NCBI RefSeq assembly: GCF_900103425.1
Contig: NZ_FMXA01000003.1
Coordinates: 1-64,000, forward strand
DNA: 64,000 nt
Direction: 5' to 3'
DNA from: Dialister histaminiformans
GTDB lineage: Bacteria; Bacillota; Negativicutes; Veillonellales; Dialisteraceae
Shown: positions 34,896 through 39,572 of the stretch, in pieces
Layout of the letters: every line of letters starts with the position of its first letter
Position numbering within the stretch: the first letter of the stretch is position 1
Program-made: the position numbers and the translations under genes
Notes under the pieces: generated by a model
Database searches by the model: none
Told to the model about the DNA's origin: nothing
The model's input: the letters and a program-made list of their open reading frames with translations, nothing else

Positions 34896-34981
34896 TGGTG
34901 CGGTCGGAGAGACTTGAACTCTCACGGACGATGTCCACTACCGCCTGAAGATAGCGCGTCTGCCAATTCCGCCACGACCGC
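34896..34981 (-). tRNA. tRNA-Leu(CAG)
   Basis: Class II tRNA with acceptor GCGGTCG/CGACCGC, long variable arm and encoded CCA. Anticodon loop TTCAGGC gives CAG for codon CUG. Last gene in the cluster. Confidence 0.95.
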
Positions 34982-35018
34982 ATATTAAGTTGTGTTGCAC
35001 AATTTCAAAGAAAAGAAA

Positions 35019-35104
35019 TGGTGCGGCTGGTGAGACTTGAACTCACACGATCGAAAGATCACTACCCCCTCAAAGTAGCGCGTCTGCCATTCCGCCACAG
35101 CCGC
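35019..35104 (-). tRNA. tRNA-Leu(GAG)
   Basis: Class II tRNA, acceptor GCGGCTG/CAGCCGC, encoded CCA. Anticodon loop TTGAGGG gives GAG for CUC/CUU. Confidence 0.95.
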
Positions 35105-35111
35105 AAAAGTA

Positions 35112-35187
35112 TGGTGCCTCAGAGCGGAATCGAACCGCTGACACAAGGATTTTCAGTCCTTTGCTCTACCAACTGAGCTACCGAGGC
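35112..35187 (-). tRNA. tRNA-Phe(GAA)
   Basis: 76 nt with acceptor GCCTCGG/CTGAGGC (one G-T pair) and encoded CCA. Anticodon loop CTGAAAA gives GAA. Confidence 0.95.
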
Positions 35188-35192
35188 AAAAG

Positions 35193-35269
35193 TGGCGACC
35201 CGGATCAGATTTGAACTGACGATCTTCGCCGTGACAGGGCGACATGTTAGACCACTACACCACCGGGCC
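35193..35269 (-). tRNA. tRNA-Asp(GTC)
   Basis: 77 nt. Acceptor GGCCCGG/CCGGGTC, discriminator G, CCA encoded. Anticodon loop CTGTCAC gives GTC. Confidence 0.95.
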
Positions 35270-35274
35270 GTACT

Positions 35275-35350
35275 TGGTGGGCGATGACAGGTTCGAACTG
35301 CCGACATTCTGCTTGTAAGGCAGACGCTCTCCCAGCTGAGCTAATCGCCC
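35275..35350 (-). tRNA. tRNA-Val(TAC)
   Basis: 76 nt. Acceptor GGGCGAT/ATCGCCC, CCA encoded. Anticodon loop CTTACAA gives TAC. Confidence 0.95.
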
Positions 35351-35354
35351 ACAT

Positions 35355-35429
35355 TGGTGACCCGTGCGAGATTCGAACTCGCGAACCCGCCGTGAAAGGG
35401 CGGTGTCTTAACCACTTGACGAACGGGCC
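35355..35429 (-). tRNA. tRNA-Glu(TTC)
   Basis: 75 nt. Acceptor GGCCCGT/ACGGGTC, CCA encoded. Anticodon loop CTTTCAC gives TTC. Confidence 0.95.
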
Positions 35430-35433
35430 ATCG

Positions 35434-35509
35434 TGGTGATCCAACCTAGACTCGAACTAGGGACACCCTGATTAAAAGTCAGGTGCTCTACCGACTGAGC
35501 TATTGGATC
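35434..35509 (-). tRNA. tRNA-Lys(TTT)
   Basis: 76 nt. Acceptor GATCCAA/TTGGATC, CCA encoded. Anticodon loop CTTTTAA gives TTT. Confidence 0.95.
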
Positions 35510-35514
35510 ATAAT

Positions 35515-35589
35515 TGGCAGGGGTAGTAGGGATCGAACCTACGCATGACGGAGTCAGAGTCCGTTGCCTTACCGCTTGGCGATACCCCT
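35515..35589 (-). tRNA. tRNA-Gln(CTG)
   Basis: 75 nt. Acceptor AGGGGTA/TACCCCT, discriminator G, CCA encoded. Anticodon loop CTCTGAC gives CTG for codon CAG. A TTG tRNA-Gln must be elsewhere. Confidence 0.93.
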
Positions 35590-35590
35590 A

Positions 35591-35665
35591 TGGCTCCTGA
35601 AGTAGGGCTCGAACCTACGACCGATCGGTTAACAGCCGATTGCTCTACCACTGAGCTATTCAGGA
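35591..35665 (-). tRNA. tRNA-Asn(GTT)
   Basis: 75 nt. Acceptor TCCTGAA/TTCAGGA, discriminator G, CCA encoded. Anticodon loop CTGTTAA gives GTT. Confidence 0.95.
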
Positions 35666-35669
35666 AAAC

Positions 35670-35744
<75 letters not shown>

Positions 35745-35761
35745 ATTTCAGCAACGATATT

Positions 35762-35789
35762 ATTATATCACTGCAACGTTGTTTGTCAA
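35762..35789 (-). promoter_or_regulatory. tRNA cluster promoter, both hexamers consensus
   Basis: TTGACA (35784-35789), 16 bp, TATAAT (35762-35767), 18 bp before tRNA-Gly. The only visible promoter for the ten-gene operon. Confidence 0.85.
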
Positions 35790-36039
35790 GTCCTTGTTTC
35801 AAGAAACTTTTCTTTCAACGTTTGACGCTGCAGTCTTTGCATCTCTCGATGCCGCTCAATCGCAACGTCATGTTCAATACTTTACCAGACACGTCATCAT
35901 ATGTCAACAACTTTTTACAGAAATATTTTAAACCCGCATCGGACTCCAGTTTTGTAGGTCCATCTTCTCCGATAAAATCTGGTTTTTTTCATGCTTTATC
36001 TTCTTTTCTTATAGTTTCTGTTTTTTCATAAAAAACAGT

Positions 36040-36086
36040 AAAACCACCGGACAGTATTAAAATCTCTTATACTGTCCGGTGGTTTT
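36040..36086. terminator. Terminator after LarC-like gene
   Basis: An 18-bp perfect stem (AAAACCACCGGACAGTAT and complement) with an 11-nt loop and T-runs on both strands, 52 bp past the LarC-like stop. Confidence 0.9.
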
Positions 36087-36137
36087 ATCTGTACTTTATG
36101 CGTTGGAAATCCTGTTAACTTTTTTACTTTTTCCAGA

Positions 36138-36875
36138 TTACCGGCCGAAAATCTGCAGTCTTCTGTTAAAAATAGAATTATTCTTTTCCGTATAATACCC
36201 AAGATACAGAGTTACCGTATTCTCACCGGCCGGATTTTCTATCTGGCTTGTACCATAGGACGTAGCATCCACTATAAAACGCCCGTCCATTGACTGGAAT
36301 TCTTCGGATAATCCTTCCAGAATGGCCGCTGCAAATGTCGAAATCCCCTCCACAGGTATGGGAAGACCTGCCGTGGCCCCCTTGCGCTTTAAAATGGCCG
36401 ATACGGCCTTTCCCTGTTCTGTTTTCCCTGCCGTAATATCCAGAGGGCATGTGAAGATAGCGTCTGCTTCCAGGTAGGATATTCCCAGCAGAATATAGTA
36501 AAGGGATATCAGATTTTCAGGCGCCACGTGAAGGTCCTGCAAGGAATCCCCGGTTTCATTCAGGCCGGCCTGCAGCGCATCCATAACCTTATTCCCCGGC
36601 ATCAGAAATTCCTGGCATCCTTTTTCACAAAGGTCCATCCACTCTGCCTTCAATCCTTCCATGGTCAGGTTTTCCTCGCCCATTACCGGTGGCTGATAAA
36701 AATAAGTAGCCCCAATCTGAGCGTATGGATTATTCCTGATTATCGGCCGGGTATACAGTCCCGCCTTTTTCCCTTCGGCCTGCAGATATATTTCCGGAAC
36801 CCCCATATTAACCAGTGCCCCTGCCAGCATATCCGGAGTGAGTTCCCCATTACATTTGATAAATAATGCTTTCAT
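36138..36875 (-). CDS. LarC-like protein (nickel-pincer insertion family)
   Basis: A 245-residue protein resembling LarC (DUF111), which in lactate racemase activation inserts nickel into a pyridinium-mononucleotide cofactor using CTP. MKALFIKCNGELTPDMLAGALVNMGVP matches the LarC start (SGDMxLGALLDLG); EADAIFTCPLDITAGKTEQG and GLPIPVEGISTFAAAILEGL fit the middle; DATSYGTSQIENPAGENTVTLYLG fits the GyGaGxxxxxxpNvLR end. Several of its usual glycines and histidines are lost and it is shorter than the roughly 400-residue full form. It starts 2 bp after a CobT-like gene, so one transcript. No larA, larB or larE is seen. Confidence 0.6.
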   Translation of the reverse strand: MKALFIKCNGELTPDMLAGALVNMGVPEIYLQAEGKKAGLYTRPIIRNNPYAQIGATYFYQPPVMGEENLTMEGLKAEWMDLCEKGCQEFLMPGNKVMDALQAGLNETGDSLQDLHVAPENLISLYYILLGISYLEADAIFTCPLDITAGKTEQGKAVSAILKRKGATAGLPIPVEGISTFAAAILEGLSEEFQSMDGRFIVDATSYGTSQIENPAGENTVTLYLGYYTEKNNSIFNRRLQIFGR

Positions 36876-36877
36876 AG

Positions 36878-37771
36878 TTACTCTGCCTTTCCATAATTCA
36901 TCATTATCCGGTCAAGAAGGGAAAGTCCTGCTGCCGCTCCAAGCCCCGCGCCGCCGGTAATACCATAATGCAGCATCGGTTCCATATGAAGTGCCTGCAT
37001 CTGCATCTTATGCACCGGTTCATCATAAGCCAGGGAAGGGAATATTCCCGACAGGACTTCCGGGTACACAATCGTTGCTGCCAGTGCTGCCGCCCCGGAC
37101 ACCGCATCATCAAACACAACCGCTACACCGTTTTTGGCGCATACGGTAATAAATCCGAACATCGCCACAATTTCCGTGGAACCTGTCGCGGCCAGTACTT
37201 CCAGTGGATTTTCAGCCAAATTTCCGACTTCTTTAAGGTGAAGACGATATCCATTCTTTCTGGTCGCATTTTCCAGCCGCTGATGAAGAGCCGCCGTTGT
37301 CACAGCAAGAGCCGACAGCATATATCTTTCTCCCACATGGCCAAGGCCGACCGCCTCGATTCCCTGCCTGATTACCGCCTGGGCCACAGCCATACCGGCG
37401 GAAACCGCACGTTCTGCCGTTTCCTTATCCATAGCCGGGTACCCATGATGCGTACCATGAATAACCTTCTGATGGAGTATGCCGGAAATTGCCGTGGTAT
37501 CTTTCTGTAAACCTATATCAATCAGATACACTGGCGCATTGATTCTGCGCGCCGCCGCATTAACCGGCCCATATCCCTGTGAAATCACAGCCGCCTCATT
37601 AAAGCTCAGGCGCCCCTGTGTCTTATTGACTCCATCCACTGCCGTATCCCCGCAGAAAACAACCAGGGCTTTCCTGAGTGGTTCCTGTCCCCTGTCCTTA
37701 TACAGAGAAAAAACCTTGTCCTGCATTACATCCCATCCGCTTTTATGGCTTTCCTTACGGTCAAATTTCAT
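36878..37771 (-). CDS. CobT-like phosphoribosyltransferase, ArsAB-type subunit 1
   Basis: A 297-residue CobT homologue. CobT joins nicotinate mononucleotide and a lower base to give the alpha-riboside phosphate of cobamides. Visible matches are ALVVFCGDTAVDG (for the FxADHG block), APVYLIDIGL, NPLEVLAATGSTEIVAM (DPLxLLAxxGGxEIA), VVFDDAVSGAAALAATIV and the C-terminal EPVHKMQMQALHMEPMLHYGITGGAGLGAAAGLSLL. In the last block the catalytic Glu (GEGTGA in CobT) is replaced by Gly (GGAG, about 273-276). It overlaps its paralogue by 4 nt. This pairing matches ArsAB of Sporomusa ovata and Veillonella. Confidence 0.75.
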   Translation of the reverse strand: MKFDRKESHKSGWDVMQDKVFSLYKDRGQEPLRKALVVFCGDTAVDGVNKTQGRLSFNEAAVISQGYGPVNAAARRINAPVYLIDIGLQKDTTAISGILHQKVIHGTHHGYPAMDKETAERAVSAGMAVAQAVIRQGIEAVGLGHVGERYMLSALAVTTAALHQRLENATRKNGYRLHLKEVGNLAENPLEVLAATGSTEIVAMFGFITVCAKNGVAVVFDDAVSGAAALAATIVYPEVLSGIFPSLAYDEPVHKMQMQALHMEPMLHYGITGGAGLGAAAGLSLLDRIMMNYGKAE

Positions 37772-38805
37772 GCCTCTACCCCCAGTTCTTCCTTAGTCGC
37801 ACATTCCTTATATATGTGAAGCACCGTTTCCAGCATATCGCCGGCCATAACGGCAGCCATACCGGTTTCCCACACAGGGTTCAGGGTAGATACCCCGGTA
37901 AGGGAAAGTCCCTGCAGTAAATCTTTCTGTCTCCTGTTTCCGCTGAAGCATTCAGAAGCCATCACTGACTGCAGTGAACTTTCAGACAGCGCAAAAGCCA
38001 GATAGGCTGCGGCCACGCCGGACAGGCCGTCCAGAATAACCGCGCCGCGCCGGGACGCCGCCCCCAGAATCACCCCGGTGAGGAATCCTATATCTACACC
38101 ACCTGTTTTCATTAATACATCGAGCGGACTGTGGTTATCCGGCTGATTGGCATCCAGTGCCTGCTGCACCTTTTCTATGGCATCCACCACCTGTTCCTTA
38201 CTCATCCAGGATTCGGGGCGATATACTTCCGCCGCATTCCACTCTTTCAGCCCGGCAATGACTCCGCACGCCGCCATAGAAGATCCCAGACTCAGGTTCC
38301 CCAGGTAAAATAGTTTCTTCCCTTTTTCAATCCATTCTCCGGCCATTTCAATCCCCGACTCAATGGCCTGAATGGCCTGCTGTCGGGTCATTGCCGCCCC
38401 CTTGGTAAAATCAGCGGTTCCCTCTGCCACACGCTGTCTGCTTATATGCGGATTGCTCAGCCCCTCACCGGAAAGTCCCGTATCCACAAGGGAAAGCTCA
38501 GCCCCTGCAAATGCCGCATTTTTCTCCGCCTCTTTTATCATCTGAGCATACGCCGGATTATCCGGAGTTTCCCTGTTTATAAAAGATCGGGCCGCACCAT
38601 GCTCAGATAGCGGCGCAATAAGAACCTTTTCCGGATCCTCCGGCATGGTTTCTCCAACCGACAGCGCGTAATGCACCACCATATCCACCGCATTCCCCAT
38701 ATAGGTCAATCCTAAATACAGCCGGTTCCACCGGGTGCGGATTTCTTCTTCTGTCTCAGAGGACAGAGGGACAATTCGATTTAATGTATCCTCTAATAAT
38801 CCCAT
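37768..38805 (-). CDS. CobT-like phosphoribosyltransferase, ArsAB-type subunit 2
   Basis: A 345-residue CobT homologue. LIAPLSEHGAARSF (68-70 for the DHG block), SLVDTGL, VAEGTADFTKGAAMTRQQAIQAIESGIEMA (GTxNFxxGPAMTRexA), LFYLGNLSLGSSMAA (GEMGIGNTT), DVLMKTGGVDIGFLTGVILGAASRRGAVILDGLSGVAAAYLAF and a final NPVWETGMAAVMA. Glu313 lies where CobT has its catalytic Glu, which is the reverse of its partner. GNTT is replaced by GSSM. It leads the operon, with a promoter and attenuator just upstream. Together with the next gene it is expected to act as a heterodimer. Confidence 0.78.
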   Translation of the reverse strand: MGLLEDTLNRIVPLSSETEEEIRTRWNRLYLGLTYMGNAVDMVVHYALSVGETMPEDPEKVLIAPLSEHGAARSFINRETPDNPAYAQMIKEAEKNAAFAGAELSLVDTGLSGEGLSNPHISRQRVAEGTADFTKGAAMTRQQAIQAIESGIEMAGEWIEKGKKLFYLGNLSLGSSMAACGVIAGLKEWNAAEVYRPESWMSKEQVVDAIEKVQQALDANQPDNHSPLDVLMKTGGVDIGFLTGVILGAASRRGAVILDGLSGVAAAYLAFALSESSLQSVMASECFSGNRRQKDLLQGLSLTGVSTLNPVWETGMAAVMAGDMLETVLHIYKECATKEELGVEA

Positions 38806-38990: not shown

Positions 38991-39572
38991 ATGTCTAAAC
39001 TGAAAAAAGCCGGCATCCTTTTCGCCATACTCATTGCCGGTGCTGCTTCCTGGTTTTATTTTTACTGGATGAACACGCCTGCCTATGCAGCCGGAGAAAT
39101 CCAGAAGGCAGTACAGAGCCATGATTATGACCTGCTTGCCTACCGGGTGGATTTAAACAAAGTCTATTCAGCCGCCATTGATGATTCTGCGGATGTACTT
39201 TCCAAAGATGGAAAAAAGGACCATAGAACCGCCGCTTCACTCCTCCGCAGTTTGAAAAGCCCTATTGCTGACGAACTGGTTCATCAGACACAGCTACGTT
39301 TCCAGGGCAAGAAGAAAGAATCATCCTTGTTCGATGAACCTGTAAATGCCATTACTTCCTATCTTGGATTTACTACCTTAACCATCACTCAATGCCTTTC
39401 CATTGAAGAAAAAGGTGACCAGGCTATTGTAAGTGTACGTGTTCATGACCGGAAATTAAAACACGATTTCACCTGGAAAGTACTTATGGAAAAAGATGTA
39501 AACGGGACCTGGTGCGCTACCCGCATCCTTAATCTGAAAGACTATATCAGAGAAAGAGAAGCTCTGCTGTAA
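38991..39572 (+). CDS. DUF2939-like membrane-anchored protein
   Basis: A 193-residue protein with a single N-terminal helix (about 7-27) and then a soluble domain. PAYAAGEIQKAVQSHDYDLLAYRVDLNKVYSAAIDD resembles the DUF2939 start, a helical pair that follows the anchor; the C-terminus is beta-rich (QAIVSVRVHDRKLKHDFTWKVLMEKDVNGTWCATRI), like an NTF2-type fold. Function unknown. GGGAGAAT precedes the ATG. One-gene unit, ended by 39584-39632. Confidence 0.7.
   Translation: MSKLKKAGILFAILIAGAASWFYFYWMNTPAYAAGEIQKAVQSHDYDLLAYRVDLNKVYSAAIDDSADVLSKDGKKDHRTAASLLRSLKSPIADELVHQTQLRFQGKKKESSLFDEPVNAITSYLGFTTLTITQCLSIEEKGDQAIVSVRVHDRKLKHDFTWKVLMEKDVNGTWCATRILNLKDYIREREALL

Follow-up and report, generated by a model that had tools for sequence, protein, structure and literature searches.

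The window, a stretch of 64,000 nucleotides from the genome of Dialister histaminiformans (1.70 Mb, 99.25% complete; G000), carries on its minus strand a three-gene operon in the order arsA-arsB-larC1′. The arsA gene (37768..38805, minus strand) encodes 345 aa and overlaps by 4 bp with arsB (36878..37771, minus strand), which encodes 297 aa. The third gene, larC1′ (36138..36875, minus strand), encodes 245 aa from an ATG start. The preliminary description had placed this gene 2 bp behind the second CobT-like gene, and the reading frame at 36138-36875 together with the arsB coordinate of 36878 gives exactly that distance from the arsB stop to the start of larC1′. An intrinsic-terminator hairpin with a U run (36030..36092, minus strand; dG -34.7 kcal/mol, z -10.4) lies directly 3′ of larC1′ and ends the operon. 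Further downstream is an array of 10 tRNA genes (34899..35744, minus strand). Just upstream of this array is a perfect sigma-70 promoter match (TTGACA-16-TATAAT, 12/12; window 35762-35789, minus strand). On the other side, a divergent gene at 38991 lies upstream of arsA. No cobalamin riboswitch was found near any locus looked at.

The likeness of the third protein to LarC, proposed earlier, holds up in a profile search: against Pfam PF01969 (Ni_insertion/LarC) it scores 24.0 bits (E 2.6e-5), a narrow pass over the curated cut-off of 22.1 bits. The same profile is matched by all 11 of the 11 family homologues of LarC1′ (E up to 1; best E 2.9e-9), and in a profile-profile comparison the family aligns with canonical LarC1 over 228 columns (probability 99.1, E 1.4e-18). 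These profile matches make LarC1′ a genuine, though divergent, homologue of LarC1, the N-terminal half of LarC. The LarC2 half is not present in the window protein, and the single weak PF01969 match in the window genome is LarC1′ itself. Motifs lost in all aligned members of the window's family, here called f1, are the SGxSGNM start, the His-rich loop, HFHEVGAxDxIxD and CAHGxMPxPAPAT; those kept in the alignment are GxLxxxGVPxxY, part of the TPxGAA region, YG and LGY. In the LarC tree LarC1′ forms a long branch, placed among LarC1s without resolution. Its predicted orthology to the LarC1 of the order rests on position, gene order and an [IV]FG tail common to LarC1′ of f1 and to family f2. A fold search of the PDB with the predicted model (pLDDT 77) gave no usable match, and the LarC entries 12bi-12bl were not among the matches listed.

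Both upstream genes match PF02277, yet far under the CobT equivalog cut-off. Phylogenetic trees place the window proteins in clades with ArsA (support 99/94) and ArsB (support 100/98) of Sporomusa ovata, so the LarC relative is indeed joined to an ArsAB pair. ArsAB is the NaMN:phenol/p-cresol phosphoribosyltransferase of S. ovata, the NaMN phosphoribosyltransferase role being given by a title cited in PMC6461909. Such tandem CobT homologues are almost confined to Negativicutes and serve as a predictor of phenolyl-cobamide production (PMC6461909; PMC8123684).

The two proteins of the window are in different condition. The CobT active-site motifs are gone from ArsA, which has GNLSLGSSM and RPESWMSKEQV in place of GEMGxxNTT and GRGxxISDxRL, and SECFSGNRRQ and VWETGMAA in place of SHLSxExA and LGExxG. 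Among 83 ArsA residues that are invariant in 15 CobS-positive species, 42 are changed both in the window genome and in its sister (G001); 12 of these 42 columns are identical in the two, including E170N, G172S and E238D, so inactivation probably preceded their split. ArsB keeps the core residues found order-wide, with 15 of 16 invariant residues retained in the window and sister comparison; it also keeps the conserved polar residues D66, D70, N74, GxxGER and VFD (A4 numbering). The phosphate-loop motif of ArsA, GEMGxxNTT, is altered in ArsB throughout the order. Absence of the catalytic Glu from window ArsB was considered as a sign of decay and rejected, the position being E, Q or A order-wide. 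Both ends of window ArsB are trimmed, and it lacks the N-terminal segment seen in ArsA-partnered ArsBs. Elsewhere, G059 has a large internal ArsB deletion (L061:3169-3969) with the adjoining ArsA and canonical LarC1 intact.

Family f1 takes in D. succinatiphilus YIT 11850 (G007) and D. micraerophilus DSM 19965 (G005). The order arsA-arsB-larC1′ occurs in 11 of 11 f1 genomes with a readable arsB (G002, 75% complete, was left out of this count) and is thus not specific to one strain. Third-gene proteins of f1 are 40-49% identical to the window protein, and the arsB-larC1′ spacing is -4 to +20 bp where gene ends are clear; in f1 and its sister family alike, the arsB stop and larC1 start overlap or nearly so. 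The absence of LarB and LarE noted in the preliminary description extends further, with none of LarA, LarB, LarE or another LarC over cut-off in the window genome. The smaller f1 genomes (G000, G001, G003 and G005) all keep LarC1′ and lack all of LarA, LarB, LarE and other LarC. Larger f1 genomes encode a separate full-length LarC, in larE-larB-larC order (L073, L074, L075). In the tree it clusters with LarC1 of G111, a genome from a different family of the class (support 100/100), and is therefore probably of different origin; the grouping suggests an acquired larE-larB-larC cassette.

LarC of the nickel-pincer pathway acts on P2TMN, and its chemistry has been described (PMC11796402). Clear homology to LarC1 would suit a LarC1′ that still inserts nickel, for an unknown cofactor; we regard this as highly improbable, given the loss of HFHEVGAxDxIxD, CAHGxMPxPAPAT and the His-rich loop, and a genome with no LarC2, LarB, LarE or LarA.

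The three other families of the order indicate how a LarC half came to lie here. In these LarC is split: wherever the arsB locus of a split-LarC genome was read, LarC1 is directly behind arsB (examples at L055:226-1086, L056:2543-3400 and L057:3688-4521), and LarC2 is at a distant locus beside larB. Each of the split-LarC genomes tested also encodes larA, larB and larE. The tRNA array is found behind the locus in f1, f2, f3 and f4, so the locus is positionally orthologous in all four families. By this comparison of gene orders, larC was split at an early stage of the order's evolution, larC1 going behind arsA-arsB and larC2 with larB, and the pattern implies that the LarC1 behind arsB began as half of a working nickel-pincer enzyme. 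The preliminary description had tied the LarC relative to cobamide synthesis. This tie fails in that canonical LarC1 of relatives travels with larA, larB, larE and larC2, and so belongs to nickel-pincer, not cobamide, synthesis.

No LarC-like gene was found behind arsB in Veillonella-like genomes that lack Lar genes or have full-length LarC, nor in another genus that lacks them. Elsewhere, then, the LarC1 behind ArsB is usually gone once the nickel pathway has been lost or replaced, and its retention in f1 needs a reason. Family f2 has a further, independent case: G018 and G015 carry a degenerate LarC1 of 200-203 aa behind arsB, which groups with f2 LarC1 (support 92/58). None of the Lar genes is present in G018. 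In G015 a canonical LarC1 is retained as well, behind an arsB remnant. In these f2 loci arsA, arsB and the degenerate larC1 are followed by a T-box, metF, a MetH-activation-type gene and cobalamin-dependent metH (L052:3279-10210, L053:1-4953); for G018 this holds as far as the stretch analysed, which ends within metH.

The window genome, its sister and D. micraerophilus have lost parts of cobamide metabolism. CobS is absent from these three, whereas all others tested have it (as a fragment only in G002), CobU is absent from the three and present in the other 12 tested, and B12-binding domains are likewise found in the other 12 and in none of the three; the domain search covers cobamide-dependent enzymes that carry this domain, unlike class II ribonucleotide reductase. 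In the CobS-less genomes the ArsA motifs are lost (G000, G001) or ArsA is broken (G005). D. micraerophilus represents a separate CobS loss, with ArsB and LarC1′ intact beside its broken ArsA. Cobamide base activation in the window genome was rejected on these grounds, there being no CobS, CobU or B12-binding domain and no ArsA motifs. The preliminary description's idea that cobamide base activation includes a metal step or one on a pyridine nucleotide is not supported; since the LarC1′ motifs are lost too, a cobamide-base or nickel step is unlikely in this genome. A nicotinate-mononucleotide ligand common to both protein families would be compatible with these findings.

Another reading concerns the cobamide makers of the family, where LarC1′ would aid phosphoribosyl transfer by ArsAB, in lower-ligand choice or NaMN delivery, and would not yet have been lost elsewhere. 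The genes overlap or nearly overlap ArsAB in all f1 genomes, CobS and CobU are present in most f1 members tested, and PMC8123684 lists D. succinatiphilus among the predicted phenolyl-cobamide makers. We nevertheless think such an accessory factor unlikely, because LarC1′ is retained in three genomes without CobS and CobU, because many ArsAB loci of the order have no adjoining LarC1, and because loss of cobamide synthesis decays ArsA and not LarC1′.

Separation of ArsB from ArsA is also seen in family f3, where ArsB occurs without ArsA and the sole other CobT-like protein belongs to a separate CobT clade (four genomes); LarC1 follows ArsB in three of these four. ArsBs encoded beside an intact ArsA carry the C-terminal tail TFGxAxVxVAEDGPGxGRQ; the f3 ArsBs lack it, as do those of the three CobS-less f1 genomes. 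The ArsA-less ArsB of f3 and the missing tail fit a second role of ArsB, independent of ArsA.

Whether the trio is maintained was evaluated from substitution rates and a neutral simulation. For the window-sister pair, compared with a same-genus pair of CobS-positive genomes, dN is 0.66 versus 0.21 in ArsA (about threefold) and differs little in ArsB (0.36 versus 0.34) and LarC1′ (0.51 versus 0.37). Both ArsA and LarC1′ are fast-evolving; dS of the window-sister pair is saturated, and there is no close CobS-less pair for dN/dS. Neighbouring genes of these two genomes are 54-79% identical. Second codon positions of the trio have far fewer changes than third positions. In CobS-positive relatives LarC1′ is already degenerate, yet conserved (dN 0.09 with dS 0.78, and dN 0.14 with dS 0.59). 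The simulation, run to a nucleotide distance of 0.64, yields 9-12 expected stops per gene, with a minimum of 2; none is observed in any of the three frames. The open frames speak strongly against pure drift, with the reservation that dS is saturated and a close CobS-less pair is lacking.

These data bear on the main rival explanation, that the trio is what remains of ArsAB and LarC1 following the loss of the two pathways, open by chance or under weak constraint. Death of ArsA in two CobS-less genomes and its breakage in a third, the trimmed ends and some acceleration of ArsB in CobS-less genomes, and the long branch of LarC1′ are all what a relic would show. Against it, three frames remain open in two species at saturated dS where drift predicts 9-12 stops each, the bias toward third-position changes is marked, the shared inactivating changes put the loss of ArsA before the species split, and LarC1′ was degenerate yet conserved while CobS was still present. 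A relic thus seems rather improbable, though less so than the accessory role above.

This gut-type bacterium has lost both parent pathways and most catalytic motifs yet keeps the three genes, which have probably acquired a new use. On balance, we judge it somewhat likely that LarC1′ is an exapted, catalytically dead LarC1 serving as a partner subunit of ArsB. This reading draws on comparative evidence: open frames at saturated divergence, two separate CobS-less lineages in which ArsA decayed but ArsB and LarC1′ were retained, and the occurrence of ArsB without ArsA in f3. The sequences show the history behind it: larC split with its first half behind arsA-arsB and its second with larB; in the larger f1 genomes a different full-length LarC serves nickel-pincer synthesis, and in f1 LarC1′ lost its catalytic motifs and stayed behind ArsB; cobamide synthesis was also lost in three genomes, where ArsA decayed and ArsB and LarC1′ remained intact. 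ArsB and LarC1′ would form a complex that performs neither phosphoribosyl transfer nor nickel insertion and is under selection. Its most plausible role would be binding or sensing a nicotinate-type nucleotide, ligand and role both being guessed from the substrates of the parent families. More tentatively, ArsB and LarC1′ (with dead ArsA in some species), which descend from unrelated cofactor pathways, may have become fixed together among Dialister-family anaerobes, forming a complex of one-time enzymes that works outside both pathways, for example in sensing or sequestering nicotinate nucleotides.

A catalytic version of this idea appears very unlikely; in it, ArsB and LarC1′ would together make up a novel enzyme for nicotinate mononucleotide or some similar pyridine nucleotide, joining the ligands of both families. 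Both parent families handle nicotinate-derived mononucleotides (PMC11796402, and for ArsAB a title cited in PMC6461909), and ArsB keeps its conserved polar residues; the LarC motifs are gone, however, and the phosphate-loop motif is altered in ArsB order-wide.

The claim that no system joining LarC to a CobT pair has been described agrees with the literature searched, where subscription papers fell mostly outside scope and no paper linking LarC with ArsAB or CobT was found. The tandem cobT rule for phenolyl-cobamide production (PMC6461909) could mislead in this clade, because here the pair has open frames despite a dead ArsA and the absence of a cobamide synthase. In the split-LarC families, with LarC1 behind ArsB and LarC2 elsewhere, the genes for the two halves of a cofactor-insertion enzyme lie far apart. 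Should ArsB-LarC1′ have its own role, a directly testable question is what ArsB does where ArsA is absent.

In Lactiplantibacillus plantarum LarC is split into LarC1 and LarC2, encoded in overlapping frames. The order studied here likewise has LarC in two reading frames, but the halves are at separate places, LarC1 behind arsB and LarC2 beside larB. Compared with LarC of the nickel-pincer pathway (PF01969; PDB 12bi-12bl), LarC1′ is homologous across the whole N-terminal half, but lacks the LarC2 half and the conserved motifs, in a genome without LarA, LarB or LarE. The nearest structural relatives of the upstream proteins are ArsAB of S. ovata (PDB 4hdk and related entries), likewise a tandem of ArsA and ArsB; unlike that pair, window ArsA is without active-site motifs, the genome is without CobS and CobU, and a third gene derived from LarC1 has been added.
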